Shown here one piece after another: positions 1 through 64,000 of a stretch of 64,000 nucleotides of DNA. Both the position numbers and the translations under genes were made by a program. Source of the stretch: Peltaster fructicola (lineage: Eukaryota; Ascomycota; Dothideomycetes); assembly GCA_001592805.2 (NCBI GenBank), contig CP051142.1, positions 1 through 64,000 of the forward strand, given 5' to 3'. The notes under the pieces were generated by a model. It ran no database searches and was not told the origin of the DNA. It saw only the letters and a list, made by a program, of their open reading frames with translations. Each line of letters begins with the position of its first letter. Position 1 is the first letter of the stretch.

Positions 1-95
1 CCCTACCCTACCCTACCCTACCCTACCCTACCCTACCCTACCCTACCCTACCCTACCCTACCCTACCCTACCCTACCCTACCCTACCCTACCCTA
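1..95. repeat. Telomere, 19 tandem CCCTA units
   Basis: Nineteen perfect 5-bp CCCTA units start at the first base and end at a sharp junction with unique sequence (GATCCTTTTC). The C-rich strand runs 5' to 3' inward from the left end, the orientation of a true chromosome end, so the complementary strand reads TAGGG toward the terminus. The unit is a pentamer; the usual filamentous-fungal unit is the hexamer TTAGGG, and no CCCTAA occurs in the tract. Confidence 0.93.
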
Positions 96-5969: not shown

Positions 5970-8900
5970 TTCATAATCTCACCAGCTCTGTGGAAACCTC
6001 TCCAGCATGTGCGACGGCAGTACAATGGCCTAGCGGGTGCGCTCCATGGATCCGAGGGCAGACCGACGACACCACGGCATCGCGAGCTGAGACAGCTTCA
6101 ATCTGCCTGAGGTGGTAGTGCTGCTTCTCAGCTACACTCTCGTCGATGAGTCATAGCCATAGCAAGTGTAGTCGTTGAGGAGTGGCTGTCTGAAGCTGAT
6201 TATGATCGAGACGTCTCAGGTCGGCGCCAGCAACCGGTAGTCGTGATCATGCACACTCGATGCTATCTGATGCCCATTTCCATGCTTCTGGAATTGTAGA
6301 TTCATCATGGAGGAGCCTCCTGCAGTGCAAAGTCGTCTCCCGGTTGATCGAAGCTGAATGTGCTTCGACCCGACGTTTGTGACGAGATCACTCCTCAATC
6401 TGCACTCTCGACGATCTCCTCTGCTCAAATTGCTGCTGTTGCGCTTCGCTTTGTGTCATGAACGAGCCTTCTATGAGGCGTGGCCGTTGAGAAATGATGA
6501 ATGGAGCTGAAAATGCTTCGGACCGTAGGCCCAGCGACGAGGTCAACCCTCCTTTCGCACACTCCAAGGTATCCTGTGTTCACTTTCATGCTCTTGCGCT
6601 CCACTCTGTGTCATGAGTGAGCCTGCTGTGATGTGTGCTCGTTGAGGAGTGGTTGAGAAGCTCAGAAATGCCTCACCTCGCGGCGTCAGTGACGAGCTCA
6701 ATCCTCTTTCTGCACACTCTAAGTTATCCTTGATCCAATCTCCTACTCTTGCGCTTCACTCTCCATCAGGAATGGGCCTTCTGCGATGCGTGGTCGTCAA
6801 ATGATGTGCTCATCTCTCCGGACAGCCTCACTGCCATCTCGACGTGCCGTTTGCCATTCTTTGCTTTTTTGGATGCTGGCGCCCTGCCCTCAAGGCTTCC
6901 TCCTCTTACTCTGCTACTCTGCAGCAGTCGGTGTATCGATTCGAGATGTGTAGTGTCTGTGGTGGTAGAATTAGTGCTGTCGTAGCGGCGACTTCATCGG
7001 TCGATTGTATGAGCTATGCAGCTTCAAGACTCCCGATAGCTAACATAGTCGATAGCGCGAGCGTCTGAGAACTCCCTGTATAATTATCAGCTGTCCACAG
7101 GGCGTGGTCGCTACGTAGGCGCAATCCTGCTGTGGCTGTATAGTACGAATCCAGCTCACCTTCTGCGACAACACCACAGCCTGCGCAACCGTATCAACCT
7201 TGAGCAAGGCATACATGATAGCGCGACTCTGTGGCTCTCATTCGTTCCATCAGCAGGCCTCCTGTAACGCAGGTGCGTCGAGTATTTCGCATTTCTCTCA
7301 CAGCTGCTCTTGTAGCATACCCAATCATATCCTGGCGTATCGATGTAGCAGTACTCTTCGACACCTCCTTCGTTGTTCCGATTGCTCTATACTGCGGTAT
7401 GATACGTCCCTCGACGCTATCGATACGTCGTTGTGAAGCAGAGGCGTAGAGGCTGTGCTGCGGTGCCAGAAGGTCGTCCACAGATACGATGTCTCTGCTG
7501 CTCAATACTCCCTCACTTGTCCATTGTACTATCTCTCTACTCTTGCGCTATCATCTGCTGACAAGATGAGCCTCCCAGGATGCGTACTCGTCGGGCAAGG
7601 TGCGTATGCAGTGACGCAAGTGTGCTTCGATAACGACTGTATTGCAGCACTCAGGCACTTCCTGTACTGCTCTGGTCACTCCAGAGGTCTCGATCTCCGA
7701 TATCATAACTCCTTGGAGGCTCCAGCGTCTGTGGTGGGTGAACAATGATGCCCAGTAAGGTGGACGCTATGGCGACATTGAGATGTATTGTGAGCGAATC
7801 ACGACGGTAAGACTCCCGAAATGCATCGCTGGCAGTCAATTGCAATCTATACTCTTATTAGCATCAAGGATCAGCTGGGATGAGACACTTCCACTGTTGA
7901 CTCAAGCCCTTTGCAGAATCCACTCACTTTGACCAGCACTTCAAAAATCTTCAAACCAGCACCGGCAGCTGCGACATACCCATAGGATGATAGCGGACGC
8001 TCTGTTGAACTTCACACGCCTTCGATCGTGGTTGCAGCTGCTCAGGTCGTCGTGTAATGGCTGTTTGAGTTTCAGTGAAGCTCGACTTTGTGACCACCAC
8101 ATCGAGCTTTTGAAGCTCACAGAGCTCAGACAAACCAGTGCGGAGTATAGTACAGATTCAGCGCTTTCGAAACGTGTCTCGAGCATCGTAGCAAGTGTCC
8201 TGTGTGGTCGACAATCACACGTTGAAGTTGACTGACCTTCTGGCTACCCACGACCATCATGGGCGTGTTGCAGCCACGGGACTCCCGAAACGCAGCGCAG
8301 AGTAGACTGAGAACTCGCCACTGGCAGTGAGCACAAGAGCGAGTGCTACAGCGGAGTTCGCGGTATTCCGTAACACTGTTGTCCTCGCTATGCCTGCTTC
8401 ATGCCATTGACTCTTGCAACACCACAGTGATTAGATCCCTTCTCTGCTCTTGCTAGGTGCTCTGAATACGTATCGTGTCGTCAATCGGCTCTGTAGCATG
8501 GCTTTCGCCGAGGGATAAGCAGATGAGCATTTGTGAGGACGAGCGACTGGCATGCATCATGCCAGGGTTGTTTCGACACCAGAGTATCTGGGATCCTCCC
8601 CTGCCGTTGATGAATGCTCCCTGATACTCGGTATATCGTCTCTAGGCTCTGAGACGTTGATTGCGGTCTGCGCGACAGGTAGGCGTCCATCGACATCGTT
8701 CCAGCTTGCCTGCATGATACCGACTCTTGCAGCACTACAATGCCTCATACCATTCTCTGCTCTTTCTCTGCTCTTGCTAGTTGCTTTTGAGTACTCGTCG
8801 TGTGGTCTGTGGACTTGGATGGGATCGTGGTTGAGGACCGCTGGCGAGTGTGAATCTGTATGATCTCGGTCTTGAGGTATATCAGCGCTTACAAGGGTAC

Positions 8901-19838: not shown

Positions 19839-21660
19839 TTAACTATGAGGATCGATCCCGTTCCTCAAGCTCGCAATTCTCTTTGTCTTCGTCTTAGGAG
19901 TCATTGATGTGTCCGTCGGTTCTTGCTCGACCACAGGGACCTCATCTACCTTGGCACACTCTCTGCAGACCTCGCTGATGAGCATGCCATTGAACAGCGA
20001 ACAATAGCCGACATCATCCAGGTCGACACATCGCTTGCATACGTCGTCCAGGAGGATACCATGACCGGACGAGCAAGAAATCACATCCCCCAGCTCAGCA
20101 CATCTCTTGGAAATCGCAGCAATAAGCAATCCATGACAAGAAGAACAGTGAATCTTGTCGTCCATGACACTCATATATCTGTAGCAGATGTCACTCTGTA
20201 CGGGCTTGTCTGATCCCGAGCAAGCAGCTACATCAATGCGCCTGGGCTCACATTGCAAAAGCTCACTGCCACAGTGAGAACCATGACATGCTGCCCTCAG
20301 ATCTGACAGCGAAGGCGTCCCCATGGTCGAACAGATGTATTCATGAACGGCGTGGGAAGGATCGGCAATGGCCAGTCCCTGTCTGTGCATCTCCTGCAAC
20401 GATGAACCATACAACACATTCTCACTGTTGTACGCCCACAATTCAGAGTCGTCTTGACGTAGAAGTAGCTGCATCAGCTGCGACGAGAACACTCACAGAT
20501 GCTGTGAGGTCGGGGGACCAGTATCCTCCATGAGGACTGAGCTTGCAGGGAAGATGCCAGTGACACAACGATGTGATGTCCGTACTGTGATCAATCCAGA
20601 AGGAGCACTCTCTATACCAAGATTCCTTGCCCATCTGTATCCTGTCCAGCGAGCCTGTCCCTTGAAACGTAACAACGCTCAGTCTAGTTCTGATGTTCAA
20701 CCCCTGATGTCGTCGGTAAGTGTCTTGAGTGTGTCAACCGGTGGGACCAGTAGGCGTGGCTACTCTGTGAAGACTATCTCGACAGCATTCTCGCTCCTTA
20801 CACTGCTTGAGCGTGTCGAGGTGCTGCCGGAGGATGTCATTGGCGTCAGGCTATCGTCCTCTACCCTGCTGTAAAGAGGCTGTAATCTATCATTGACAGA
20901 TCATGCTCTTCGAAGATAGCATCTAGCGATGCATCAGTATCCTCACTTGGCATGTCGAACGGCGAAACTCCAGTCAGAGAGCTGCAGCCCTGTAGTGCAC
21001 AACGCCCTTGACGAAAAGCGGCTCCATGGGCGCTACATACCTGTCAGTCGTCGTATCGTGGACAGCGAGACCAGTGCCTCTCGGACAGGCCACTCCGCCA
21101 AAGCTGGTCGGTGAAGGACGTGCAATCGAGGAACCCAGGCTGTCTTGTCATCGAACGCAATGTGCTCTCTCATATCGACCTTGTCCCACTCGTACGAGCT
21201 GCATTGCACGATCGCGAAGGAGACCATCACCTCCGCATATGCTGACCACTGCTCTTGCTTGATGTTCATACTTCACGCATGTGTGACAGGTCATGAGACC
21301 GCACTTCGGTGTGTCCTGAGTGGAAAGACAGCAGTCGATCTTGAGTTGTGACTCTTCACAGCTCTTGAGCCTCACCTTACAGCGCCCAACAGTGCACCCT
21401 ATCGTCTGCTGTGACCCATGCACGATTAGTGCTGCTTGCTCGTGCATCTCACTCATCAGAATGCAGCTGCGTGAAGGTGACATCACTTGCTGAGAGTACC
21501 TTCGAAGCATCTTGTACGTAAGGCTCTGTGCTGTACCATGTCCCAGGCTTCAGTGTTGCTACGACTGTCGTTCGCCGTGCGCCGAAAGGTGTCTGAGGAG
21601 CTTGGCGTCTATCAGCCTCCGTACTGTATGCTTCTCTAAACTGTCTCGTTGCTCTGCCTT
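19839..21660 (-). pseudogene. Relic of the trypsin-like gene (paralogue of the 28.3-29.9 kb gene)
   Basis: Translated pieces in several minus-strand frames follow the intact 541-aa gene in order. A CHTC...ARAVVS..GGD piece (about 21.2-21.3 kb) matches CHVC...ARPTVI..GGD. FVKGVVHY...LTGVSPFD (about 20.9-21.0 kb) matches LVKGEPYF...LTGESPFD and is followed by SE...LDAIFEEHD against SE...LAELFEDDE. VTGIFPASSVLM (about 20.5-20.6 kb) matches LSGRFLPGSIIM, and RQDDSELWAY (about 20.4 kb) matches RPGDSGLWVA. The nucleophile motif GDSG has become DDSE, two G-to-A changes. Frame changes and stops separate the pieces, including a TGA near 20,493. One open stretch of about 211 codons remains (from the ATG at about 20,474 to 19,839); its 3' half is a cysteine-rich repeat absent from the intact paralogue. 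I judge the gene non-functional as a protease; a small product from the open stretch cannot be excluded. Confidence 0.75.
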
Positions 21661-23029
21661 GCACTCGTAGACTGCTGAGAGGTATCTGGGAAGCATCTCC
21701 TACACCAGACTAAGCACTGTATGCCATTCAAGGTTCGGTGTTGCTATGCTCTTTGCTAGTCGAGCGCTCAAGGGTGGTAAGAGCATGTCGTACATCATGC
21801 TAGGTGATGGACGTCCCTCCGCATCTTGGTGTAGCTGATTGTCGTGGCTCCGGTGTATCGTGGCATTCTTGTCCTGCGGCAATGCTCAGCATTACATATA
21901 CAGGTGATCAACGTCTAGGTCTGTCTCGTTCCTTTGCTAGCATCGAAGCTGCGGCTACAAGGTAATGTATGCCACAATCGAGAAGATTGAATCGGAATGT
22001 GACGACGATGAGACTAATGCTGATCCGATTGTGATTTTGAAGAGGCTGCGCTGCTCACGAGACTCCGTTGTTGAAGACGCCGTGATGCTAAAGACTGTAA
22101 TGCAGACGATACCGTGATGTTGATGACGCCGTGATCTTAAGAAGACAACAGAGAGAACGCCCAGTATGGTCGAGGAGCTGCAGGAACGATGGTTGGAGGT
22201 CAGGATCGCATCGAACTCATCAGCATCAACATCCGGTTGACCCTGCGAGCGTCTGCGAGCTGACTGCCATTGATCTGCGAGGCTTCCTCCACCATCGTAA
22301 GGATGGGACGAGTGACAATGGAGAGGAAGATTGTGCACTCGGGTGCAGAAAGGTTCGTCTCTGAGCCTTGCAGCAGTCGTGTGCGCATGGGTGAGGCTAC
22401 CATGACTGCGATGTGGTGCATTCGTGGATAGATATTCGACTTGTCAGCTTCGCATTTGTTGCACGAGAACTAGTCAGCCATAATCGAAAGGCTGTACACC
22501 TGCAGAACCAAACGTGGCTTGCTGGCTTTGTTATAGTATTGTGTCCATGCGAGAGTTGCCCATGATTCACAGCCTGTACGACTCCGGGAGCAGATGTGGC
22601 TTGCCATTGTTGCAGTAATACCTCGTACAAGTCGAAGTCAGTATCTGATCGAAGGACTGTACCTTCAAGGCTACAATGCAGTCAGTGTCAGCCAACAGAG
22701 TCCAATGCTGGACAGATCTCATGCTTCCGTAGCACAGGCGGTTGATAGCGGCCTCGAGATTGAGATGAGTCAATGCACAGCGTACGAACAGTGGACAAGA
22801 TCCAGTGCTGATAATCTGTTGTGGAATGCTCATTGAAGAGCCTCCAACACTGCGACGCTACATCGCAGTCGTGCAGCAACGAGGGCTCATGCCGGCAACG
22901 ATGCAATGTATAAGATTCGACGAGCTGAACGAATCAATGTCCTTCTTCGACGCAGCGATCGACCAGTGAAAGCAACTCAAACGTATGAGAAGAGCTGGAC
23001 GACGTTAGAGCTGCAAGCTGTGTGTCGTG
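21661..23029. other. Spacer between the two relic genes
   Basis: No gene recognised. The intact module has only about 300 bp between its two genes, so this 1.4-kb spacer has probably gained DNA. A small direct repeat lies at 22,074-22,140, where gacgccgtgat, gataccgtgat and gacgccgtgat recur about 25-30 bp apart. Confidence 0.45.
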
Positions 23030-24100
23030 GCATCCATTGGAGGGTTGAACATCTCGTCGACCTGCAGACTCGTTAGCATAACCCTTCTTCGAAGGCCACC
23101 CATCTGTGTGCCTGCAGCGCACCATCGCACTCCTTTGCGACGATCAAGCCAACATCGAGAGAGCATAGCTGGTTCACTATCATCATATGCTTGCTTCAGT
23201 AACGCCAGTCTTTCCGCCAGAAGTGTCAGTGCTTGATCTGTCGCTGTGCAGTGCTCAGCCTTCCACACTGCAGCGCCCGTTCGTCCAGTATATACTGCTC
23301 TTCCTTCTGTCGCTTGTGAACCACACTGGAGTGGCGGAGTTGCGATGTGGAAACAGAAGAGCATTTCGAAGATCAGTCCTGCCTGGATTACAATGTGCAC
23401 ATCAGCCGGATCCTGCTTTGACCTCTTCTGAAGTGCTTCCAAGAAGCCAGCATGATGAAAGATGTGAACACTCTGCTTTGCTTCTCGATGATGTATGCGC
23501 AGGTGGTCTGCAAAGTGATCAGTCTAGACGATCTCAATGCCTGCGATCTATTGAAGAGCAGCGATATCATATAGCCGCTCAAGTCTGACAATAGCGTTCA
23601 GGTGAGGACGGTAGTAATGATCAGCCAGACAGGCTGAAAGCAATCCCGTCTTCCACTCTAGATCGTGCATCGTCAGCAGTCGTGCAGCCAGTCTGAAAGC
23701 AATCCCGTCTTCCACTCTAGATCGTGCATCTTCAGCAGTCGTGCAGCCAGTCTGATCGGCCCAGTAAGCTGTTTGTCAGTACGACCAACATACTTCCCTT
23801 GCATGTGCAGCAGAAGGTCTTCGAACCGTTGCGAAGCTCCAAGGCAAGAGCATCGACGAAATCCTGATGCACCTGCCGGACAGGCACTCCCACGCCCTGC
23901 CAACGAGTCCATACTATGGCGAGGACAGTAGTACGCAAGAACACCGGCCTTGATGGCCTCTCATACAGCAACTCTTGCAGAAGATGTATATCAACATCAT
24001 CATCACGTTCGGTTGTGATGGAGGGTTGCGCCGTGTCAGTCATATCCATCTTGCTCCTCTCTTGCATTGATTCCTGGATCATGCTGGCGCTGACCACCTC
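23030..24100 (-). pseudogene. Relic of the small membrane-protein gene (paralogue of the 30.2-31.3 kb gene)
   Basis: Minus-strand pieces align in order with the intact 332-aa protein. VRQVHQDFVD (about 23.9 kb) matches AGRVHQDIVR. RFEDLLLHMQ...IRLAARLLKMH (23.7-23.85 kb) matches TFEKILLDLQ...IELAARVVTMH. ERLYDIAAL...FADHLRIH...SVHIFHHAGFLEAL (23.44-23.58 kb) matches ERLFDISAL...LAEHLAIH...SVRVFQHATWLNAV, here with two in-frame TAG codons. RLALLKQAYDDSEP and LDRRKGVRW (23.1-23.2 kb) match RLVLLKEAFDDTEP and YDRRKSVQR. The frame is lost several times and the C-terminal membrane segment is not recognisable. Gene order and strand relative to the trypsin-like relic are the same as in the intact module. 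Confidence 0.85.
23628..23758. repeat. Tandem duplication of 59 bp inside the relic
   Basis: The segment beginning caatcccgtcttccactcta at 23,641 repeats at 23,700, 59 bp later. One mismatch is visible over the second unit (gcatcgtc against gcatcttc). The flanking agcca(g)tctgaaag is shared on the left. Near-identity in a region where everything else is strongly diverged points to a recent event. Confidence 0.9.
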
Positions 24101-27100
24101 TTGCATGAACGATGGATCGTCCCCTTTGTAGAGTCTGCGTTGTCGGAGGACTGCGAACGACCTAGGCGATTGCTGAGGTGGCTAGCAAGGCTGACATAGG
24201 AGGTACTGTACTCTCAAGGGGCTGTCGCGTGTGTATGAGGATGGCGATGCTGGATCCTTATTCGTTGCAGGCAGGCTGTGAGCCCGAGCGAGCATGGTGG
24301 TCTCGCTGAGAGTTCGGACATACGCTGAAGTGATCGTAGCTCGTATGGTTGAACGGCTGCCATCGCAGTCTGATGAGGATGCTGAGGAAGGACCTAGAAT
24401 GTTATAGGCTTTGCACCATGCACACAGCCGTGATCGATAGGGATGGTGAGTGTGCTTACCAAGGTTGAGTTCGTGATGCTACTAGCAGTCTGGACAGTCT
24501 CTAGATGCCAACGACAAGTGACATTGGTCAAGCGTTGTCCGTCCTGTTCAGTCGCAACGCTACACATCACGTGTGCTTCTGTATGCTCTGAGTACGCTGG
24601 AAGATGGTGCAGTCGCTTGTTCGAGATCGTGTTGGACTCGCTCGTAGCTTGAACGCTGGCAGACTCGAGCAGAGCCGATGTGACAACAACAGCATGCCTT
24701 TCATGGATCGTATGCGCTGGACAGGCCTCGAGATCGATGGAGGGTGTTGCAGTGTTCTAAGCGAGCTTGTGTCAAATATGCTTGTGACTTGGGTACTAGG
24801 AGGCTTGCGATAAGATGGCGCAGCAAGTGACTCAGGCCTCTGCACGACTTTCAAAGGCTACAGCCCACGATCAATGCAGCCGTACTTGAGAGACGATGAG
24901 TATACTTGAGTCGAGCTTGTGTTGAACGTACTCGCAGCTTTGAGGGTAGCATATACCTTGGAGCGAAGAAGGATTCGTTCTCCAGGGTCGGTCTGCATGT
25001 TTGCGCAAGGCGACAGCCTTTGGTTGATGAGATTGAATGTCTAGCTGATGAAAGATAGTAAATATAGTGAGCTGTACACATTTATTGAGGACTGCGAAGC
25101 CGGAGGTGAGGTCTGTGCGGATGTCACTTCTGTTTTGCAGAGAAACTCTATTCCACATCTTACTCCTTCAATCAGCATGATTGGAAGCCATCGTGACGTG
25201 CAAGAGTTGCGCCACAGTGCGACGATACCACAGGCTCGATCTGCATTCCTACATCGCACCATCGCATCCTCATCGCCTCGATTGCCTCAGGAAAGCAGTC
25301 CTCCATCACGACAGCAAGACGCGTGTCTACACCTTGGGCATGATCGCCATGAGCCTCAAACGCTGCTTCTACCGTCACATATGAGATTCTACCTCGTCGA
25401 CTCATCTCGCACATGTCCTATCGCCCAGACAGTCCACCATAGGCACAAGAAGAGCTGACTCATTGGGAAGGACAAGCACAACTGCTTAATGTCATGATAC
25501 ACCCTCGTCAACGTACTCTATGGCCCGTATACCGCACAGTCAGATGGCCTTGACAGAACCAACGTACTCGCTCGTAAGCATTGTGCATGTCGAGATGCAG
25601 GAGAAGCGGAAGAGGCTGACGAACAAACTATGAGATGTCAGCATTGCTCGCTATTTCAGATTCAATGCCTTGCCCGTATCGTAGGAACACAGGTAAGAGC
25701 TGTAAGATCCTCGATGAGTGTCACGATTCAGGACCCTACATTCCGTTCATTGTTCTGTTCGCTCTTACTCATCTCGAGACACAGGCGGAGATGGAGAGTC
25801 GGCCATTCGCACCACTAGATGCAGCAGCTTCGTGAGCGCACGACCTTCAGCGAGGATAGAGTGAGCACCTCTTTATCCTAACATCACACCTTCTCTCTTC
25901 CGTTGGTAACATTGGTGATATCACATGCCGAAGACGAATCGAAGACACCTCTACATGGCGGAGTTCCCAAGCATCAATGAGTACATGGCGCTGTGAACAC
26001 GCGCAGGCCAATACTGCTTGACGATTGGCGACGACCGCATTACACAACAACAGCCGCACTGGCTCACACATCACGACTACTCCTCAAATGCTCGTGGACG
26101 ATTTAATGAAAGCAATATGGTCAAGAGCAGGACATAGCAGTTGCACGAACGATACACAGACGGCATCAGCGTGAAGTGCATACATGAAGGAGGAGAGGAC
26201 AGCTACAGCATCAACGTCTCGTAGGAGCAACTCCTTCACTGCGCTGCTACTTCGCAGGCATCAACACGAGTTCATTGCAAAACCAAGAGAAGCATCGATC
26301 ACACACCGTCAGTGGTAGTCATACTGTCAGAAAGACAGATATCCAGCAACTAGAGGCAAGGTGCTATCATCGAAGACCCATAGGCCGAGCATAGACTCCA
26401 CATGCAGCAACATTACACGCACATGGGCAGCAACACCATCTCTCTCAAGCAAACACGACTGCCTCAATTGGACAGATATCGGCAGTGTAGTTGTCACAAA
26501 GACAGGCATGTTGCCTCTTACACACAGACGGCTATACTAGAGTCAACGTACCAGAAATATCGTCCTCAACGTACGAACGTAGCCTATACATCAATAGGAG
26601 GGTCGACAGCTCAGAGACAGCGATGTCGTCCTTCTATCGCACTCAATCTGCCTCTGTGTCTGGGACTGCAATCGGGTGTCCGCCTCAGCTCGGTCGCCCG
26701 TCTTTGCAACATCTAGAGCGCTAGTATGGCCCCTCGATTCACTCCATCAGATCTGTCACAAGGCCTCGTCTCGCTTATCCTTCATCCCATGCTCACAGAA
26801 TCCAGCAGAGCATCTGTTCTGTACAGGACTACTGGCCATCTGTCGGTGGTCGAAGTGCCTCGCAAGGCTTACAGACAGCGTATTACACCTACAAAGCTCC
26901 TATAAGCATCGGAGCACCAGCAACAATCCGCCATGCAAGGAAAGAGCATGAATACAAGGAGTATACTCAAGTCGTCGCTCGCTAGACTGTCAGTCTAACA
27001 GAAGCATAGAACCTGTCGCCACAACTATACATTCGCCCTGCAGGCACAGCTCTTGAGACTCCATGGGACGCCTTCAATGCTCGTCTACTCCCGCTGCTTG

Positions 27101-28315
27101 TACAGACGTCGACCTCTTCATACCTGGCCACTGACGAGCAGTACAAAGCCACTGATTCGCAAGACGGCTACTTGCTCTTCTGACAAGGTGACTGAGAGCA
27201 TTCTAATCACAGTCGTTGCACTAGACCGTAGTCGTGGACGGCACGACCTCGACGACGATGATGGTTTCTCTGACCTTCCACAATGGACTAGATGTCGTGG
27301 CGCACATATACTTCGTCCCTGGCATGTCAGCTTACTCTTGACAACTGCATAGAGCACAGCTGTCGACGAGACGAAGTTTGTGATCATATCCGTGGGCTCG
27401 ATGGATCGAGGACTCAGTGCATCATACCACCACAACCACCACGACCACTGGTCGCGATCATCGTCTCTAGTACCGTCATATCGTCCACGCCATTGGCTTC
27501 TCTGCGTATCTCCAATCACCTCTTGCTCGGGACAAGGCAGTGAGCATTGTCACAGACAGCATGATCAACACTATGGAGGGCCTGGACCTGGCAAGCACGG
27601 ATTCAGCGTATGTAAAGCATCATCCCAATGCTATACTATCTCTGAAGACTGTCGAATGCAGCCGTGGAGCCAATGCGGACCATGCAGCTGCTGGAGAGGT
27701 CAGACGGTGCAAGAGGAGTACCGTCTGCCTCGCGTGCTGCTATCTGGGCCTGGCATCGATCAACGGATCGATATCCTCTGACACCTCTGAGCTCACTCCA
27801 TTTGATCATGCAAATCGTATCCCATGTATTACTTTCATTCCTGCATATACTTGGGCCCATTCTTCAGCTTCGCATCTTGCTACTCCTCTCTGTAAAGCTT
27901 CAGGTCTGGCCCTCAATGACAAGCGACAACACAGTGCCGCTGCCTGCAATGTCCTGTACCAAGGCGAGATCATCATTAGTATGAAGACATTTACCCTCTA
28001 GCTGACTCTGCTGGAGCGTCCGGACAATCCACATCCACTATCGTAGGTGCGAGTGGTTGTCCAGAGCCTGAGTAATGCATGCCTATGCTTCCTAGGTCCG
28101 ATAGCAGAAGCCAATGGACATATGGCGTCGATCTCGCAGTGTACTCATAGTACTTCATTCAGCAATACCAACGTCGCTGTCGTGACCACTTCGTTCGGGT
28201 TCCTTGTCTTTTTGGCCTAGTGAAACATGCAACCTTGGCGTGTCGTCCAGTCTCCTCTGCTCCCTTGCAGCCTTTTGGTCATGACCGATGAGGTACAGTC
28301 GTGGCATGTCATACT
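24101..28315. other. Subtelomeric DNA without recognisable intact genes
   Basis: A phrase like gagcttgtgttgaac.tactcgcagctt recurs near 24,630, 24,762 and 24,908, spacings of about 130-150, so a relative of the 155-bp satellite may continue here. From about 27.5 to 28.0 kb the plus strand has overlapping open frames of about 100-150 codons. One includes a hydrophobic stretch (IMQIVSHVLLSFLHILGPI) resembling a transmembrane helix. I could not tie it to a family and do not call a gene. Nothing else was recognised. Confidence 0.45.
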
Positions 28316-29941
28316 CTAGTAAGCGCTCATTTCCCGGATCCACCTCGTTGCTCGACCGCCAGCCTGCACCACGGTCCACGACTGGAGAGAATGGGTTTCC
28401 TGATCCGATGAAGCCTTTCTTGTGGCTGTAAGCTGACGACGATGTGAACAGCCCACCGCGCTTATGGTCCCCAAGTCAGATCGCCACCCATTGAACCCCA
28501 ATCTATTCGAGTGAAAGCGTCCAGTATCGTTGTCAGCCGCACGCAACTCGTCTTGGTCACTGCCAGGCGCCTCTTCGTTGTGGAACCAAATCGAATCCAT
28601 GATTGCAGCCTGGACAGGTCCGAATCTTTCGTCGATATCCTCGCAGGTCCAGCATGAAGGCATGACCAGGACGCGCCCCGTCTCTGCATCGCCAGCGACT
28701 ACGTGGCCCCATATCTGGCAGCTTTGACGACTAGCTACCCACAGACCAGAGTCTCCAGGGCGTAACGGGGAGGTGGTCTCTCCGTATGGATGTGGAGCGA
28801 AGATCCAGATATGCTGTACAGCAGGTTCGTCAGCCTGTTTCATGATGATAGAACCAGGCAAGAAGCGTCCACTCAGGATGCCTCGATCTGGTAATTCGAT
28901 GAACATGTCGATGGACGATGGTGGCGGAAAGAGCGTTTGGATAGCTTCAGACACTCGACCCTCCCTTTTAGATGCCATCGTGGCATCTTGCAGTTTCGTC
29001 GGCAGTCTTGCGAATGTATAGTGGGTACCATACACGGTGTCACTGCGTGCAATCATCGTCCGAGGAATCGGAACAAGGGCATAGTCGAGATGTAGAGGGC
29101 CGCAGAGGATCTCTAACTCTTCACTAAGCCATCCTACGACTTCGACGAAGCGAGATGGGTCATAGTCGTCTTGAAAAGGATTGCCCTTCAATTCTGGTTT
29201 CAAGCGGCATTGCAGGTGATCTTGTTCGTCATCCTCGAACAGTTCTGCCAGTGCATCGCCCTCACCGGACAGACACTCTTCGCTGACGCTGTCGAAGGGC
29301 GATTCACCAGTCAAGACATGTGCTGAAGTGAAGAAGTATGGTTCTCCTTTAACGAGCACAGGTCCTGATAACGTCCCGATACTCAGATTCGTGGCTGTAA
29401 CTCGGATAATAGAAGGCAACTTGCCCTTGGCACTCATCAATATCTTGAGTCCATGTGTCGAGATCTTATGCTTGCCACATGTCAGAGCTAGTGCTCTCGG
29501 TTGTTGCAGTGCTGGGTCTCGGACCATCTCGCAGAAAAGGAACGTCGAATACTCCTTCTGGTCGATCACATTCTCCTCTTTCAACAGGCGTAATGCTTTC
29601 CTTCGAGTCGGCTTGTCGCCGCCCCAGATGATGACCGTAGGTCGTGCTTTTGTTTTGACCTTGCCACAAACATGACAAACAATGCAGACAGTCGCCGCAA
29701 ATTGCTGATCTGACAGGAACTGGACGATGTAGGTCTGCAAAGCCTCCCACAGACGAAGTGCTGGTCCGCGAAGAGCCCAGCAATACACCTTGCCTGTGTC
29801 GGCCAGCAGAGGACCAATCGAATCATCAGTACAGTAGTCTGTGGCCGGCAGGACATGGCTGGACACTCTCTGGATGAAGGACAAGCGCTGTGTCAGCGGC
29901 TCTTCGACCATGGTTGTCGAAGGATTCGTTGTCGATGCCAT
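28316..29941 (-). CDS. Uncharacterised protein with a trypsin-like serine protease fold
   Basis: A single-exon frame of 541 aa. The frame is open 63 codons further upstream, but the ATG at 29,941 begins a plausible cytosolic N-terminus (MASTTNPSTTMVEE) and I prefer it. The N-terminal 180 residues hold a CxxCxxC motif (C86, C89, C92) of unknown role. The C-terminal part has the marks of a chymotrypsin-like domain: His in TSAHVLTG (H208), Asp in HLDYALVPI (D286) and Ser in GDSGLWV (S398), followed by IWGHVVAGDAETG as the substrate-side strand. No signal peptide or membrane segment is seen, so it is probably intracellular. Proteins of this layout recur as uncharacterised genes in Pezizomycotina (from memory, unsearched). 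It lies 300 bp downstream of a membrane-protein gene on the same strand, and the pair is repeated as relics at 19.8-24.1 kb. The protease activity is inferred from the triad only. Confidence 0.82.
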   Translation of the reverse strand: MASTTNPSTTMVEEPLTQRLSFIQRVSSHVLPATDYCTDDSIGPLLADTGKVYCWALRGPALRLWEALQTYIVQFLSDQQFAATVCIVCHVCGKVKTKARPTVIIWGGDKPTRRKALRLLKEENVIDQKEYSTFLFCEMVRDPALQQPRALALTCGKHKISTHGLKILMSAKGKLPSIIRVTATNLSIGTLSGPVLVKGEPYFFTSAHVLTGESPFDSVSEECLSGEGDALAELFEDDEQDHLQCRLKPELKGNPFQDDYDPSRFVEVVGWLSEELEILCGPLHLDYALVPIPRTMIARSDTVYGTHYTFARLPTKLQDATMASKREGRVSEAIQTLFPPPSSIDMFIELPDRGILSGRFLPGSIIMKQADEPAVQHIWIFAPHPYGETTSPLRPGDSGLWVASRQSCQIWGHVVAGDAETGRVLVMPSCWTCEDIDERFGPVQAAIMDSIWFHNEEAPGSDQDELRAADNDTGRFHSNRLGFNGWRSDLGTISAVGCSHRRQLTATRKASSDQETHSLQSWTVVQAGGRATRWIREMSAY

Positions 29942-30240
29942 ACTGATGCACCGTAGAAGAACCCAGGTTTGCAAGTGGTGATCGCGCTTATAGATGTGCC
30001 ATGTATCATGATATGGAAAGCGTGCAGACTGCCAGGTTAGCTGCGCCTCCGCGGGCGGCTTGTAGCTCTCCTGCATGTGCAGGGATAAGACCGGTGAGGC
30101 TGAGAGACGAATCGAGGACTGCACTGCCACGAAGCTTGTTCTCGCTCATGACACGGAGTGTTGACAACGCAAGGCTACGACGAGCTTGATGTGCTGTTGA
30201 CGCATGCGTCCAAGAGCTGATCTGTCATCGCGACACAGCA

Positions 30241-31277
30241 TCACCGAGGATAGTACGCTTTGTACACTTGCAGAGCGCCCTCGATACTCTGCACCAGCCC
30301 GAAGAACACCGTAAGGACAAGAACAAGGACAGCAACCCAGAACGTCGACCTCTGTACACTCTTCCTCCGATCATACCACCACTCTTTGAGCGTGACAGGC
30401 TCCGTGTCGTCGAAGGCTTCCTTCAACAGCACCAGTCGATCATGCCAATAGTGGAAACTCTCGATATGTCGATCTTCAGGAGACAGCCTTCGTATTGAAA
30501 GCATCCCTTGATCACTTGGATGCTCATGCTGTTTTGACTTCTTTTTGAACCACTTCACCACCGCTGGTCGACGAGAAGGTAGCAGTAGTGCAAGCGTATC
30601 CAGTGTCTCGTCAATGAAGCCAACAGGAAACAGCTCCCTGCTCAGTCAGCGATGTCTGCATACTCTGAAACATACTTATTGACAGCATTCAACCAAGTAG
30701 CATGCTGAAACACTCTCACACTGTGCTTGTCTCCAAGATCGTGAATCGCCAGGTGCTCTGCAAGGTTCGATGTCCATTCAAGCTTGAAGCCAGCAACTCT
30801 TTCAAGCGCTGAGATGTCAAAGAGTCGCTCGAACTTGACCTCGCCGAGCTCAGGATCTTTGTAGAACGCTTCTAGGGCATCAGATAGTCGACCAGTTGTC
30901 CAATCGAGTCTCCGTTGTCCAGACGCACTCGTCTTCCACCTGCCGACCTCATGCATTGTGACAACTCTTGCTGCAAGCTCAATAGTCTGCACGAGAGCTG
31001 TGTCTGACACTCCAGGATGCGTCTCTTGCAGGTCTAGCAGGATCTTTTCGAAGGTATTGGTCTTGAGTTGGGCTACAAGACGTACGATATCTTGATGGAC
31101 ACGCCCAGCTATGTGCTTGGTCGATTCTGCAGCTGCTTCTTCGCATAGTCGGGCATAGACCGAAAGGTAGGCATCGAGGTGTTCGCTTCCGCGATCGAGG
31201 AGGGCATGGGAGAGGTAGCTATCGGTACGACTGTCTCTGTGCTCCAAGATCGAGCACTCTGCTGGTGTGTTAGCCAT
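30241..31277 (-). CDS. Uncharacterised fungal protein with C-terminal membrane segment
   Basis: Two exons, 31,277-30,676 and 30,637-30,241, joined across a 38-nt intron (donor GTATGT, branch GCTGAC, acceptor CAG). The product is 332 aa. Splicing restores the block NKELFPVGFIDETLDTLALL, which is otherwise split over two frames, a strong sign that the intron is real. The first ATG (31,277) is used; the frame extends four codons upstream only through a GTG. The N-terminal two thirds look helical and soluble. After RLVLLKEAFDDTEP and WWYDRRKSVQ comes one strongly hydrophobic helix (VAVLVLVLTVFFGLVQ) and a short tail ending YKAYYPR. I know this layout from many uncharacterised Dothideomycete proteins; no function is established. 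Its gene precedes the trypsin-like gene on the same strand in both copies of the module. Confidence 0.87.
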
Positions 31278-34663: not shown

Positions 34664-35994
34664 TCATGTTATCTTGTCATTATTCGCTGGCAACTCATGA
34701 ATGGTATGCTGGCCTTCAAGCTCATAGTGATGATCTCCTTGCAACTCGGCAGAGAAAGCACCTCCAGGCAGCTCTGCCTTGTGTGTATCCGGACTCATTT
34801 CGCTCACATAGTTTGCACTCGGCGCCTCAGAGTACTTCCTGTCCATTTTGTGCTCCTTGGTGTAGATCTCAACAGCTTCAGGCTCCGTCTCTTTCGTTGC
34901 TCTCCTTCTTCTCCTGAAGAACCAGATTGCTCCCAGCACGATAAAGATAATCGCCAGGACGCCAATGACAATACCAGCTATGGCTCCTCCACTGATACCT
35001 GCCGAGGGTGTAGCTGTAGCTGTAGCTGAAGCTGTTGCTGACGCCGTAGTGTTGTAAGGCGTTCCAGCTGGTTGAGCAGGCGATACTCGACTTCCAGGAT
35101 TGTAATGATTGATATGTAAGCAAGTGAGATCGGTCTCCGGCGTGGAGATGATGGCTGTCTCCTTCGTGTTTAGCGGCGGTGTGAATACAGCGAAGATAGG
35201 CCAGATAGCAGTCGTTACGGCATCGTAGGTCGAATCGGAATATCCTCCAGAGAGCTCAGTGTTGATGTTATACCACAGCTCGTATCCGTTAGTCACCGTA
35301 CAGGACACTGCAAGCGCCGATTCGTTGAATCCGTTGTTCTGAGATGCTGGCAGCTGTGAGATGGGAACATTGCCGACAATCAGCTGGTTGCTCGGGTCGA
35401 AGTACACCTTGCAGGAGTTCGGTAGACTCTGCTGTAGTTGATCTTGTATACTCTGACACATCGACGACACAGACCCCTTCCCGAGAGTGTTATTGTACGC
35501 CGTAGCAGCAATAGCGTTTGTGGTAGACTTCAAGTCGTTTATGCAGCCATTACTCAACATCGTCGCGCATGTGCCAGTATCGTTCTGCCCAAGCAAGATT
35601 GTGTTCTCCGATAGTGCGCGGACGTTCATGGCCAGCGCACAAACTTCGTATCCAAGATTCTCGTTCGTCAAGTACTGTTTAGTGCCAGGGTAGACCATTA
35701 ACGACGCTTGCAGACCAACGCCTTGACTGGCATACTTTGTGTTCTGCGCAAGTCCGAATCCCTGATACATCAGCGACGCCATACACAGGTCGTCCAACTC
35801 ACCACTCCATAGTTCGCTGTCTTGTCGAAGCTGGGCGTGGTGTAGTACAGACCGGTCGCGTTCGCAGCGGCAAAGGTGGTATTACAGAGTACCAAGCCAT
35901 TAGCAAACTGCGCTGTACTCGACAGACTTGCGCTGTAGTTGTATGAAGCCGCCGCCGCTGTGCCTACAAGGCCGAGCACGACGATAGCAGCCAT
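34664..35994 (-). CDS. Secreted-type membrane-anchored protein, single transmembrane helix
   Basis: Two exons, 35,994-35,803 and 35,761-34,664, joined across a 41-nt intron (donor GTGAGT, acceptor CAG). The product is 429 aa. The ATG at 35,994 starts a signal peptide (MAAIVVLGLVGTAAAA). The ectodomain of about 280 residues has many Asn-X-Ser/Thr sites and several cysteines. It is followed by a Ser/Thr/Ala/Pro stalk (TASATASATATATPSA), a transmembrane helix (GIVIGVLAIIFIVLGAIWFF) and a basic stop-transfer sequence (RRRRR), then a cytoplasmic tail of about 80 residues. This is a type I membrane protein at the cell surface or in the secretory pathway. I do not recognise the ectodomain. The two open frames overlap around the proposed intron, so a sequence error of one base is the alternative to splicing. 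It stands alone in a gene-poor region. Confidence 0.82.
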
Positions 35995-41315: not shown

Positions 41316-42193
41316 TTACTGTACAGGATCCATGCTGAAGACGATATGCCAAATCTTCTCGAAAGCCCACCCTTTGGAATGACTTCCATCACTCTCCGAT
41401 TCAATCAGCCACTTCATCAGTCTTTCATAGTCACTCTTCGGTCTCTTCAAGATCTGCTTCTTGGTGACGATGAACTGCGCACAGCAGACATTACCAATCT
41501 CCTTCGGTACATTCATCTCCGGCACGCCGAACAACTCCTGGTAGATACCGAGGAAACGAGCCCTTGTTGTGTTCAACTCCACTTCGTCCTCATGTATCTC
41601 AAAGGGCGTAATCTCCACCATACATCCTGGACTATGCACACATCTCAGGTTTGTGAAGCCCATCGTATCGATACCCTGCCATCTTACAACCGGCAGGACC
41701 TCATCCTGGTTGCGACCACCAACATCATTATGCCATTGCTCTCGATTGTCGTGCATGAAGATGGTGTAGTCAGGGAGGTCGTCATAGTAGTCGAGCACAA
41801 AGCTAAGGTAAGCACCAGCTTCATTACCATTCCTAGTCCGTGGGAGATGGCATTCTGGGCGTGTGGTGTTATCGCCCATGCAGTAGATGAACGTCTGAAG
41901 CTCCAATGGCCTGACAGGTTCAGCAATGCAGCGACGTGATAGTATTCTTACTTCACTACATCGTAGTCGATCCATTCGATAGAATCGATGTCAATGGTTG
42001 GTAAGACAAGCGCTTTCTTGCCTCGAGGGACTTCTGCTGGTCTCCATCTCGGAGCTACATCCGTCAGCGCTGCAGGTTACTCATCTGACATCGTACCTGT
42101 ATACGAATGCGTGCCAAGAAGAATGATTAAACAGAGGAAAATCGAGACTAAGATAACAATCCTGGAGGATGAAGACGAGGTGCTGAACAGCAT
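41316..42193 (-). CDS. DUF3431 family protein, type II membrane protein
   Basis: Three exons: 42,193-42,097, 42,054-41,952 and 41,910-41,316, with introns of 42 and 41 nt. The product is 264 aa. The first exon supplies a signal anchor: MLFSTSSSSSR, then a hydrophobic helix (IVILVSIFLCLIILLG). The body shows the family pattern: GNEAGAYLSFVLDYYDDLPD, then YTIFMHDNREQWHN and, near the end, ERLMKWLIES...KIWHIVF. DUF3431 proteins are fungal, mostly Golgi or secretory, and look related to glycosyltransferase-type enzymes; none of this window's evidence proves activity. The usual N-terminal block reading like VVARYNEDL is not obvious here, so that region may be diverged. The gene is divergent from ATP11 across 584 bp. 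Confidence 0.85.
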
Positions 42194-42777
42194 TGTTGAA
42201 GGAACAAAACACACTCAACCTTGCAAGATTGTCATGGCATGATATGCAATAGACAAGTCGAATGCAGCACTCTCGAACCGGTTATCCGCATGGTGAACAG
42301 GGAGCATGAACGCGCATGAACCAGTAAAACCTACGAGACAGATACGCAACATCGACGTACGCTCTCCACGTACCACATCATCGACTTCTGAATGTGTGCG
42401 GACGCCGCGGCGGCACAAGTGACATGGCACGGAGATGCCCAGCGATTGGTTGACACCCCAGAGGAGGAGGTTGAGAAGATTCCCTGTGCCGTGCCATCTG
42501 GTTCCTGACGCAATTGAGATCCGATAGATGCAGTGTTCGGCTGAGCATGCCGCTCCGTGTTGAGACACAAAGGCAGCGCGCTCACGGACGGGTACAAAGA
42601 GCGATCTATCGTGTCAGCAATGTGTCCGTCCACGTACCGTATGGTATCTACAGATAGGAAAGTGCAGTGAAAGAGGATGGTTCCAACGAGGCTCGCCACG
42701 ATGACTTCCGGCGGTCTGTGCTCTGTGATGAAGTCGACCTTCACCTCGTGCGCAACACAACGTCCACATCCATCATC
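42194..42777. promoter_or_regulatory. Shared divergent intergenic region, DUF3431 gene and ATP11
   Basis: 584 bp separate the two start codons, so both promoters must lie here. No TATA box or repeated operator was identified. The frame of ATP11 is open for 37 codons upstream of its ATG, but that stretch does not resemble a mitochondrial targeting sequence. Confidence 0.5.
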
Positions 42778-43704
42778 ATGCGCTCGACCCATCAGGCTAT
42801 AAGCCTGCTTCGTCGCTCGCAGCGGCTTATCGATGGTTCACGAATCTGTCAACGAAGATGGGCGCAAGTCCACGACGTCCGATTCCTCGTCACCCACCAG
42901 AAATCATCAGCGGTTCTCGACAAGTATCAAAGCAAGCTTGAACAGAAAGCGAAAGAGCAGGGCAAGAGCATAGACGAGCTACGAGATACATACAAGGACA
43001 AGATTCAAGAGCTGCGCAACAAAGCTATCGTCGCTGGAGCCAATGCACCATTCCCGGCAGCTGAGCCTGGTCCTTTCCAACCACCACCTCCCCCAAAACC
43101 CAAGGTCGAAGCTCAACGAAAAGACGGGCTCAAGACTCTCGACAACTTCGTCAATGTCGAAAAGGTCTCGACATTGCCAGAGCAAGAGATTGAAGCGATA
43201 TGGAGACTACGACATATCAAAGATGCACAATCACTGTGCGCTCTGATGAAGACAGACACATTCAAACGAATCTCCGAAACTGCCCGCAGACACCCGCAAT
43301 TCATCCTACCGATACCACGAGAGGATCAGGGAGCTGAGATACACTTCATGCAATGGACGTTCCCTTCGCCAACGACAGTCACTGTTCTCTTCACTCACCT
43401 CGCCGAGTTCAAGCTACGAGGAGAGTATGCACAACCACACACCACCGTCACTCATCACACCGACCTCAGCGATAGCAGAGGGCTCGTCTTGCTGGAAGGC
43501 AGAGTACAAGAGAACCGTGGTATATCAGTAGATGAAGCAAAGTGGCTATTGATGTGCTTGCAAAAGTTTTACGGCTTCGAAGCACACTCAGACGCTGCGA
43601 AGGAGAGCCTGCAAAGGCGAAGACGACTGATGGAACAGTTCAGTGGTGGTGATGCCAATTTCAAGGTTGAAGATCTGCTCGAAGAAGCAGAAAAAGTACC
43701 TTGA
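42778..43704 (+). CDS. ATP11: ATP synthase F1 assembly factor Atp11 (ATPAF1)
   Basis: 308 aa from the ATG at 42,778, no intron. That start gives a typical mitochondrial presequence rich in Arg, Ser and Leu and lacking acids (MRSTHQAISLLRRSQRL). A coiled, charged segment follows (KYQSKLEQKAKEQGKSIDEL), then a proline-rich linker and the Atp11 domain: LDNFVNVEKVSTLPEQEIEA, IWRLRH, RHPQFILPIPRE, MQWTFPSP, FTHLAEFKLRGEYAQPH and HHTDLSDSRGLVLLEG. In yeast and human the protein binds the F1 beta subunit in the matrix and guides hexamer assembly. Length and motif order are normal for fungi. A longer start in the same frame is possible but would bury the presequence. Confidence 0.95.
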   Translation: MRSTHQAISLLRRSQRLIDGSRICQRRWAQVHDVRFLVTHQKSSAVLDKYQSKLEQKAKEQGKSIDELRDTYKDKIQELRNKAIVAGANAPFPAAEPGPFQPPPPPKPKVEAQRKDGLKTLDNFVNVEKVSTLPEQEIEAIWRLRHIKDAQSLCALMKTDTFKRISETARRHPQFILPIPREDQGAEIHFMQWTFPSPTTVTVLFTHLAEFKLRGEYAQPHTTVTHHTDLSDSRGLVLLEGRVQENRGISVDEAKWLLMCLQKFYGFEAHSDAAKESLQRRRRLMEQFSGGDANFKVEDLLEEAEKVP

Positions 43705-44069: not shown

Positions 44070-45616
44070 ATGGCTTCGATCAAGGCGCCTAGAACAGGCA
44101 ACGCAGCTGTTGTTGCAGATGAATGTATCGAGCACGAAGCGAAGACTGTGTCCATGTATCGCCAAAGGTACGGATTGACGTTGATGACACCACGATCAGT
44201 GCCACTGTACCATATGACTTACTGACCTTTTAGATTCACCACCGCTCTGCTCCTTAACCTCCTCTCCTTCGCACTACCAGCTCTATACAACACTCTCTCC
44301 TGATTGTGGGTCGCAGACATCGACAGCTCTCTTGTCGTCACAGTTGACGCTTACACATACATCGGCGTCGTAGCAGAAGTCATCAATGAAGGTCTTCCTC
44401 GCGCGGCCTGGCTCATCATAGGTGATCCTTCACGGACAGCCTCCCATCGCGCTTCTCTCTCACAAACACTAATCACTTTCCAAACAATACTCGGCCTCAT
44501 AGTCAGCCTCATCATCCTTTCAGCTGCGAAGCAGTTTGCTGGCGTATTCGTCCCTGCAGAGGTCCGCGATGTCAGTCTCACCTATGTCAGACTCAGCGCT
44601 TTCACAACTTTCAGCGGCGCACTGGAGTACGCCATCAGCAATGCTACAAGAGCACTCGACTATCCAGATGTACCACTCTTGATCAACCTCGCCAGGTTCG
44701 CCATCAACATCATACTTGACTTGTTGCTCATCTCGCGCTTCCACGTAGGCAGCATCACTCCTACGGTCAACATGCAAGCAGGGATCCGTCTTGCCTGCGA
44801 CATGGTGGCTGCTTCTGCTGGTCTAGCATATTTCCTCTTCCTGACCTGGCGACAGCTTTCGAAGCCAAGTCTCAATGCACTCAAGATCCTCCTTCGTCCT
44901 GGCATCATGACCTTCGTAGAGTCCGCCATACGCAACGCTCTCTACCTGTGGCTTGTATCGAACATCGTAGCGATGGGTGCCGAGTACGCTACAGCATGGA
45001 GTATATTCAACACAATCCGATGGGGTCTCGTCATGGTACCAGTACAGACTCTAGAGGCATCTGCCCTGACATTTGTTGGTCATCGATGGGGACGTTGGAG
45101 GCATGCATCTGAACCGAACAAAGCAAGCTGGAAGGACATTCAATGTAAGTCTCAAGTGCTGTGAAAGCGCTGCTGACTTCTGCAGATATCACACGCCCAG
45201 CTATCATAGCAGCAGGCATCGCACTGATCGTAGAGATTCCACTCGCAATCGGACTCTCACTAGCAGGAGCTCAGTCTTTTGCCTACTACTTGTCACAATC
45301 AGCAAGCGTAGCTAAGATCACAGCGTACATGTGGCGCACAATCGATTGGTGCTACATATTCTACGCCCTGTCAACACAACTCGCTACCATCTTGCTGGCG
45401 ACAGTGCCTAGATGGTATCTGTATCAATCGCTAGTCAGCAACATCTTCTACGTTCTGCCATGGGCTGTGGTTTGTCAGACTCGTCATCTGAACGCAGACA
45501 ATGCCTGGACATATCATGCACTGGTTTTCGGCGGCAGTCTCGTCTTTAGTTTCTTCGACATCGTAGTCTTCCTAGTAGCATGGTCACTGCGACTTCAGAA
45601 AGGCAAGATGGCATGA
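44070..45616 (+). CDS. MATE-like multidrug/toxin efflux protein, interrupted by one in-frame TGA
   Basis: Three exons: 44,070-44,167, 44,234-45,144 and 45,186-45,616, with introns of 66 nt (branch TACTGAC, acceptor TAG) and 41 nt (donor GTAAGT, branch CTGAC, acceptor CAG). They give 479 codons of a polytopic protein with about a dozen hydrophobic helices, including [47 protein letters not shown] and [14 protein letters not shown]. The block [20 protein letters not shown] and GLPRAAW are what I associate with fungal MATE-related transporters, which exchange drugs or metabolites for H+ or Na+. A TGA at 44,301-44,303 sits inside the first helix region, between YNTLS and LWVA, where relatives have Lys or Arg; CGA to TGA would be a single transition. 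Everything after it is open and well conserved. It is either a recently broken gene, a base error, or uses a downstream start. Confidence 0.72.
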
Positions 45617-62004: not shown

Positions 62005-63732
62005 ATGGGTCTCGGAGTGTTGGATGTCAAGTCGACGACACATGTCCCAGGGACAGCTGCCATTGAGGACCTGGACGAACTCAATGTTGCGCGCAAAAAC
62101 ACCAGCGGCAACGTGAAGTACAGCGCGAGTGGCATCATTCTCGTACCACAGCCCAGCGACGATCCAAATGGTGCGGAAACACGATATCACGCGCACTGTC
62201 ACTGACACAATCAGATCCGTTGAACCTCCCACTCTGGCGACGAGACCTGCTCACAGGCGTGCTCTGCTTGTGGTCTGTCATCGCATCCACTCTTTCACCG
62301 CTGCTCGCCGCAGATTCCATCGACCTCCTCTTCTACTACAAGCCGTCACAGACCTTCACGGGCATCGCGTTGCTCACGGGATACCATTTGCTAGGAGTCG
62401 GAGTCGCTGGGTTCATCTTCGTGGCCTCAGCACGCGTTTGGGGCAAGCGACACCTCTATCTGCTCGGCACGTTCATCATAATCATCAGCTCAATATGGGG
62501 AGGAGCATCGGGACAGAACTACAAGTCTATGGTGGCGGCACGATTCTTTCAGGGTGTTGGACTGGCTCCCTTCGAAGCTCTCGTCAATGCGAGCGTTGGA
62601 GACCTATACTTCGTCCATGAGCGTGGTTTGCGTATGGCAGTCAGTAATCTTTGCCTGTTCGGTGGAGCCTTCTTCACGCCAGTCATTGTCGGAACAATCG
62701 CGTACAACCCAGCACTCAAATGGCAGTGGACCTTCTACTTCATCGCCATCTTCGGTGCTGTACTCTTCCCACTGGTCGTCTTGTTCGTCCCAGAGACAGC
62801 CTACCGCCGGGATGATCGTACTGTCGAGCTTAGCCAGAGCACAGACAACGCCGTTGAGTCGAAGGAGGCTCTCACTTCAACAGAGTTGCCATCGACTCCA
62901 GAGTCGACTACAGCATATCAGCCACCCACACCGCCAGGCTTGATCTCACGACGTACCTTGGCTGTCTTCACAGGCCGCAAGACAGATGAGCCGTTCTGGA
63001 AACTCCTCCTTCGCCCATTCCCACTCTTCTTCCACCCAGCTGTCTTCTGGGGCATGCTCATCCAAGGTACCTTGATCGGCTGGACCGTATTCATTGGTAT
63101 CATCGTTGCAGCCATCTACTTTTCACCACCAGTCAACCTCACCGAGCAGCAGACTGGATACCTATACACTGGCGCATTTCTTGGCGCTCTGATCGGATTC
63201 GCCATTGCTGGTCTTCTATCGTACATCCCTGTCTGGATGGCCAAACGAAACCGTGGCATTTACGAGCCTGAATTCAGACTCATTCTTGTCATTCCCATGC
63301 TGATCTTCGGCTGTGCCGGTCTTTTCGGCTTCGGAATGACTGCAAGAGGCCACGGACTCATCGTACCTGACGTCTTCTTCGCCCTTGAGGTCATTGGCAT
63401 GGTGTTAGGTGCCGTGGCATCTGCGTTGTACATTGTCGACGCTCACAAGGACATCGCCGTGGAGGCATTCACATGTCTGCTGATCTTCAAGAACATCTTT
63501 TCCTTTGCGTTGACATTCAAGGGCTACGACTGGCTCATCCAGGCTGATATCGAGCCGTTGTTCACCAAGCTTGGTGGTGTTCAGGTTGCTATCTGCTGCA
63601 CGACTATCTTTTTGTGTATGTCGAGTCTCTTCGCATGCTTCTGCCTGCTAACCTCGTGCAGATATCTTTGGCAAATGGAACAGGGCATTCTTTGCTCGAC
63701 ACGATATCTTGAAGATGACAGGTTTGAGATGA
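62005..63732 (+). CDS. MFS transporter
   Basis: Three exons: 62,005-62,170, 62,215-63,615 and 63,662-63,732, with introns of 44 nt (branch ACTGAC) and 46 nt (branch TGCTAAC). The product is 545 aa. The cytosolic N-terminus ends in DDPNDPLNLPLWRRDLL, completed by splicing and characteristic of a large fungal MFS group. About twelve helices follow. The loop-2/helix-3 region reads ARVWGKRHLYLLGTF, and GGASGQNYKSMVAARFFQGV fits helices 4-5. A long charged central loop (VELSQSTDNAVESKEALTS) separates the two halves. Exon 3 encodes YIFGKWNRAFFARHDILKM, a common C-terminus in this group. The substrate is not evident. The overlapping unspliced frame runs on to 63,851 but lacks this conserved end. Confidence 0.92.
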
Positions 63733-64000
63733 TCTCGGCCAATCCTCAGGTTGATAGTGTTGGGACGATCATAAGCTTACTACTTAATCAGTTATTGAGA
63801 CTCGTGGGTATCAATGCATGCGTCATCCTCTTGACGAAAGAACTCCTGTAACATCATGCTACTGCCATGCCTCTATCGTCCCATACAGACCAGCATGGTC
63901 AGCGTCGTGCTTATTGATTACGTGCTGCTTGAGTGCATGCTGTTCGAGTGCATGATGCTGCTTCAGTACATGTTGCTGCTTCGATACATGCTTCTGTTTC
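63733..64000. other. Intergenic region with an imperfect 15-21 bp repeat at the window edge
   Basis: From about 63,920 to the window end the phrase tgctgcttgagtgcat repeats imperfectly (gctgttcgagtgcat, tgctgcttcagtacat, tgctgcttcgatacat, gcttctg...). This is a minisatellite that runs out of the window. The preceding 190 bp hold the MFS 3' end and nothing else recognised. Confidence 0.6.

Follow-up and report, generated by a model that had tools for sequence, protein, structure and literature searches.

The first 64,000 positions of a 3,523,331-bp contig (C4) of Peltaster fructicola, hereafter the window, contain two neighbouring genes on the minus strand: gene A, whose product carries the motifs of a chymotrypsin-like protease, and gene B, whose product is a predicted tail-anchored membrane protein. 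Remains of a second A and a second B lie closer to the telomere. It is well supported that adjacent and co-oriented A and B were duplicated together long ago near this telomere, and that one pair survives while the other is a relic. The functional reading that we favour is tentative, with a probability of about 0.4: A and B would be partners, A acting as a cytosolic protease at the membrane of B.

The intact pair and its relic

Gene A (AMS68_005382, 548 aa) lies at 28155..29911 (-) and is annotated with two exons, 29911-28543 and 28432-28155, separated by a 110-bp intron; an alternative, unspliced open frame of 586 codons covers 30076-28316 (-). Gene B (AMS68_005383, 332 aa) lies at 30241..31277 (-), its exons 31277-30676 and 30637-30241 being separated by a 38-bp intron (30675-30638), and it encodes, once spliced, exactly the protein recorded in the database as AMS68_005383. 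The stop codon of B is 329 bp from the annotated ATG of A.

The relic of A (20377..21577, -) is frameshifted and contains stops; its match to A starts in the N-terminal domain and ends shortly after the GDSG motif. The relic of B (23125..23825, -) has two stops in 189 codons over 23691-23125 and contains a 59-bp tandem duplication of 2.2 copies (23626..23755, +). The order and strand of the relics are the same as in the intact pair, and each relic is 7-8 kb from its intact copy. By tblastn, B matches its relic at 23691-23125 (-, E 4e-22) and at 23825-23685 (-, E 3e-5), and A matches its own at 21577-21190 (-) in two pieces with a joint E of 9e-5. In local alignments that allow frameshifts the B relic scored 333, the maximum being 51 for 25 dinucleotide shuffles and 57 for 142 other stretches of the window; the A relic scored 123, against maxima of 49 (25 shuffles) and 56 (78 other stretches). 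An earlier note on this DNA had described a two-gene module present twice, in the same order and on the same strand, through a joint duplication with decay of one copy. This description stands: both relics, and not only one of them, align far above chance, they are collinear, and the B relic is the sister of intact B (see below).

Parts of A were also aligned with the relic region, frameshifts being allowed; the four parts overlap one another, and for each of them none of 100 shuffles did as well. Residues 1-166 scored 99 (shuffles at most 54), residues 167-586 scored 100 (at most 52) and residues 331-545, aligned with 20650-19800, scored 87 (at most 60). For residues 167-330 the margin is narrow (57, shuffles at most 52).

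Several observations speak against so simple a picture of the second pair. A genome search with the whole of A gave no second copy among the matches listed at E <= 1e-3. With plain Smith-Waterman alignment the last open frame of the relic is not significantly similar to A (86/500 shuffles as good), nor is the collinear part of that frame (372/1,000 shuffles as good). The gap between the A and B relics is about 1.5 kb and not 300 bp, and the membrane helix of B is not recognisable in the B relic.

The A relic leads into a 217-codon open frame (19842..20492, -), which begins inside it and runs into Cys-containing repeats of 24 residues. The period is clear, 24 being the best lag (0/2,000 shuffles as good). 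Between three distinct units (20162-19947) 9-12 of the 24 residues agree, and their codons are identical mostly at the first and second positions. Two weaker units, seen by eye, perhaps precede them. Intact A lacks this tail, of which no further copy was listed in the genome search at E <= 10. We take the match of the relic to A as real up to just past GDSG and the repeat tail as not common to intact A; the open frame suggests that the tail may have belonged to the product of the lost A.

We do not claim that the relics decayed by a process like repeat-induced point mutation. Only one of two dinucleotide indices is slightly raised in the relic region: (CpA+TpG)/(ApC+GpT) is 1.42 (1.28-1.34 in five other stretches), and TpA/ApT is 0.53 (0.54-0.67 in the same stretches).

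Comparison of the intact and relic regions at the DNA level gave nothing better than E 0.05. Without trustworthy DNA similarity between the copies, the duplication must be old. Intact B and its relic are identical at 98, 108 and 52 of 163 first, second and third codon positions (0.60, 0.66 and 0.32), compared with 0.46, 0.55 and 0.30 for 187 unrelated matches taken as control. The third positions are thus at background while the protein was retained, the identities at positions 1 and 2 staying above the control. This again indicates an old duplication, and the second B probably kept working long after it arose. The fast-turning subtelomere proposed in the earlier note does not agree with these results. 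For A the identities are 0.50, 0.57 and 0.34 (204 codons), nearly the same as for 146 unrelated matches (0.45, 0.54 and 0.29). Long selection on the second copy of A, first deduced from the codon positions, was dropped on account of these controls, and this counts against a partnership of the two genes.

A tree was built from 59 rows: the B relic and, trimmed to the region in common, 58 of the 120 B proteins listed. In it the relic and intact B are sisters with a support of 99/92, the end branches being 0.88 and 1.92; because the branches are long and the letter make-up of the relic is odd, attraction is possible in this tree. Intact B departs from the majority residue at 49 columns. The relic shares the residue of B at 12 of the 43 that are readable, and the majority residue at 15 of them, while among the 57 other homologs the best shares 9/49 with intact B and the median is 4/49.

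These data bear on the idea that the two loci are ancient and independent, the second pair having come by introgression or transfer and never by duplication of the first. In plain tblastn scores, the B relic resembles other B proteins about equally, intact B being only second of 120, and attraction between long branches might have produced the sister relation. However, the support of that relation is high, the relic shares more unusual residues with intact B than does any of the 57 homologs, and no A was found outside P. fructicola. We consider independent loci very improbable. Since the two Bs are sisters and have unusual residues in common, it follows that the duplicated pair stayed linked while the third positions of B fell to background.

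The products of A and B

Only one stretch of B is strongly hydrophobic, at residue 298, where the mean hydropathy is 2.48 (next best 1.23). The corresponding membrane helix, about residues 298-318 (30286..30348, -), is inside the most conserved part of the family. The predicted structure is confident, with a predicted local distance difference test (pLDDT) of 92.6, and the helix of the model spans residues 291-329. Hydropathy and model together support B as a tail-anchored protein with one C-terminal hydrophobic helix and no other, in agreement with the membrane-tethered partner of the earlier note.

The family of B is large. At E <= 0.01 we obtained 196 matches including B itself (7,997 proteins scored), of which the best 120 were listed and 58 of these aligned. 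The homology is full-length and includes the conserved membrane helix; the 57 aligned homologs have 34-42% identity to B and have this helix in common. The family is spread across filamentous ascomycetes, e.g. IFR05_013105, FB567DRAFT_480974, HBI55_126130 and NW768_001005. The end branch of the B of P. fructicola is long: it amounts to 0.88 changes per column, the median over all tree rows being 0.24. No match to the family was found in Pfam or, by sequence, in the PDB. Foldseek gave no convincing solved structure for the fold (50 PDB matches and the best 50 of 95 viral matches, none at E <= 0.001), and gasdermin is absent both from the Pfam matches at E <= 10 and from the Foldseek matches listed. 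Profile scans confirmed no relative in viral contigs (116 pattern matches) or in prokaryote contigs (64 pattern matches). We know of no described function for this family.

Two observations concern individual members. The B proteins P0049 and P0053, from strains of Zymoseptoria tritici, are only 68% identical (237/346): their cytosolic part is divergent and the last 56 residues show just 2 differences, as divergent alleles or paralogs. P0115 (Alternaria alternata) carries, after its B-family part, TPR repeats of the TPR_12/NPHP3 type, which reflect either a real fusion or two genes merged in annotation.

For A, the main part of the gene has codon-position G+C contents of 0.58, 0.44 and 0.56, like exon 1 of B and other genes of the window. 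The two possible C-termini have atypical values (0.55, 0.64, 0.43 and 0.53, 0.60, 0.56). Because this is so both for the annotated exon 2 and for the read-through, the C-terminus of A is unsettled. In the 548-aa model residues 76-82 form a CxxCxxC motif (CIVCHVC; 29666..29686, -), the second and third Cys of which are retained in the relic alignment. Three further motifs follow in chymotrypsin-like order: FTSAHV with the His (residues 194-199; 29315..29332, -), DYAL with the Asp (residues 276-279; 29075..29086, -) and GDSG with the Ser (residues 386-389; 28745..28756, -). The residues around the three motifs are typical of the chymotrypsin fold. A composite His-Asp-Ser pattern, written after the motifs of A had been noticed, occurs in 0/200,000 shuffles of A and in 0/120 proteins of the B family. 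Nowhere does the hydropathy of A reach that of a membrane span (maximum 1.2). The protease-like protein with an N-terminal CxxCxxC of the earlier note is thus recovered at the level of motifs.

Other results count against a protease. A matches zero Pfam families at E <= 10, trypsin families included, and the two Pfam Trypsin_2 matches listed in the P. fructicola genome lie elsewhere and not at A. Two database searches returned no homolog except A's own record, one with the whole protein (7,999 candidates sharing most words scored) and one with residues 228-525 at E <= 10 (3,890 scored); these searches depend on shared exact words of five residues, which limits their sensitivity for A. The best PDB match (E 0.65) is to a part of A outside the motifs, and the single-sequence structure model is unusable (pLDDT 35). 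With no Pfam match, no homolog and no usable model, "trypsin-like" is a motif-level statement for A. As a lead only, a group of proteins annotated as hypothetical in filamentous fungi may have their motifs in a similar order.

A might accordingly not be an active protease. It would then be a fast-evolving orphan that binds B or another molecule, or serves as a scaffold for it, and its triad motifs would be vestigial or due to chance. The absence of a Pfam match and of a confident fold, the placing of the PDB match and the wide spacing of the motifs (residues 198, 276 and 388) all agree with this. It is nevertheless unlikely in our view, as the three motifs stand in the right order and the shuffles never reproduced the composite pattern.

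A partnership of A and B weighed against simple adjacency

In the partnership that we favour, B would be tail-anchored, the first ~290 residues being cytosolic and the conserved C-terminal helix lying in a membrane. A would be a cytosolic serine protease of the chymotrypsin type and would act at the membrane on or with B, which it would cleave or by which it would be held there. This logic would resemble that of two-gene units known from fungi, where a membrane-active protein is under the control of a protease. We infer proteolysis by A, its cytosolic location, its partnership with B and a role in self-recognition or defence from the sequence, and each should be read as a proposal. That the two genes form a working module is possible, the argument for it being their linkage in two copies.

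The same linkage could have arisen passively, if A and B have no relation beyond lying side by side in a compact genome, one duplication having spanned both and one copy having decayed in gene-poor subtelomeric DNA. Tandem duplication keeps neighbours joined without selection. The earlier note had taken tight spacing as evidence of joint action, an argument that has to be withdrawn: the 329 bp between A and B is ordinary, of the order of the median intergenic distance of 463 bp given in passages of the genome paper (PMC7181583). The same passages describe the chromosome ends as gene-poor, the ten 25-kb ends (250 kb in total) holding only 30 genes. The distribution of relatives also weighs against a partnership, B having many across fungi and A none recognisable outside the species at the sensitivity used. 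Given the usual spacing and the lack of a recognisable A elsewhere, simple adjacency is nearly as likely as partnership. On the other hand, the linkage of A and B outlived the loss of third-position similarity in B, and the second pair lost both members and neither alone. Gene order is reshuffled in the Dothideomycetes (mesosynteny), which we also count against simple adjacency.

A bolder form of the partnership, which we regard as a long shot, makes A and B a further fungal unit of regulated death or self-recognition. A chymotrypsin-like protease, not of the S8 or CHAT type, would here control a tail-anchored protein other than gasdermin; the membrane helix of B would be the active part, and the Cys-repeat tail of the lost A a swapped sensor part. 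The pair is not named in the titles or abstract openings of the literature matches listed, and the accessions of the genes gave no paper.

Whatever the role of A, B represents a large, widely shared and unnamed fungal family that is worth naming; its fold is predicted with confidence, and its membrane helix is conserved to an unusual degree. If A does act on B, fungi would have a protease-controlled membrane system beside the gasdermins. If it does not, A and B still provide a clear example of an ancient duplication near a telomere, of which one copy disappeared.

The chromosome end and comparison with known systems

The window begins with the telomere, (CCCTA)19 at 1..95 (+), in an assembly of 18,987,130 bp in 5 contigs. 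P. fructicola is a fungus that blemishes the apple surface (PMC4786788). Its published genome consists of five chromosomes, each assembled from telomere to telomere and together 18.99 Mb long, with TAGGG as telomere repeat and a median intron of 50 bp (PMC7181583). A diverged repeat occupies 6371-6806, 6381-6642 being 71% identical to 6536-6797 and 6371-6499 73% identical to 6681-6806. Below 40 kb the Pfam scan covered only A, B, the 217-codon frame and a 405-codon open frame with Cys at 34667-35881 (-), whose best match, Stevor, is below the cut-off (22.7 vs 25.4 bits). Ordinary genes appear from about 41 kb on according to Pfam: DUF3431 (41319-41990, -), ATP11 (42658-43701, +), a MatE frame (44304-45161, +) and an MFS frame (62067-63848, +).

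The earlier note also mentioned an NLR remnant further in. A fragment of the NPHP3_N domain, which we take to be NACHT-like, is indeed found in a 135-codon frame at 49765-50169 (-), as a weak match above the cut-off (28.1 vs 24.8 bits, E 2.8e-6). It is a single frame without recognisable neighbours, six other frames between 48.2 and 52.2 kb having no Pfam match above the cut-off.

Among known systems, A is like the clan PA peptidases (S1, HtrA/Trypsin_2) in having the His, Asp and GDSG motifs in order. It differs from them by the lack of a Pfam match, by a long insert between His and Asp and by an extra N-terminal region with CxxCxxC. Some proteases of bacterial gasdermin operons are trypsin-like. 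These operons follow the same logic as A/B, a protease gene beside a membrane-protein gene, although no relation to them was found in our searches; a bacterial protease gene beside a gasdermin gene is reported in passages of PMC10197012.

In fungi, the same passages present gene pairs of a protease and a membrane protein as an established cell-death unit (PMC10197012). About 80% of fungal gasdermin genes are clustered there with the genes of their protease activators; the protease is an S8 subtilisin for ~63% and of the CHAT type for ~19%, and fusion to repeats is frequent (PMC10197012). Unlike these clusters, A has no S8 or CHAT domain by Pfam (E <= 10) and has chymotrypsin-like motifs instead, and B, with its single C-terminal helix, has no gasdermin match in the searches made. 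The A/B pair is therefore not of that class as tested, and at most works alike. The likeness is to the arrangement of HET-Q1/HET-Q2 and of the Q2L clusters, in that a protease-like gene adjoins a membrane-protein gene on the same strand, here at 329 bp. As for HET-Q1/HET-Q2, the keeping of one A/B copy and the decay of the other would suit birth-and-death evolution.

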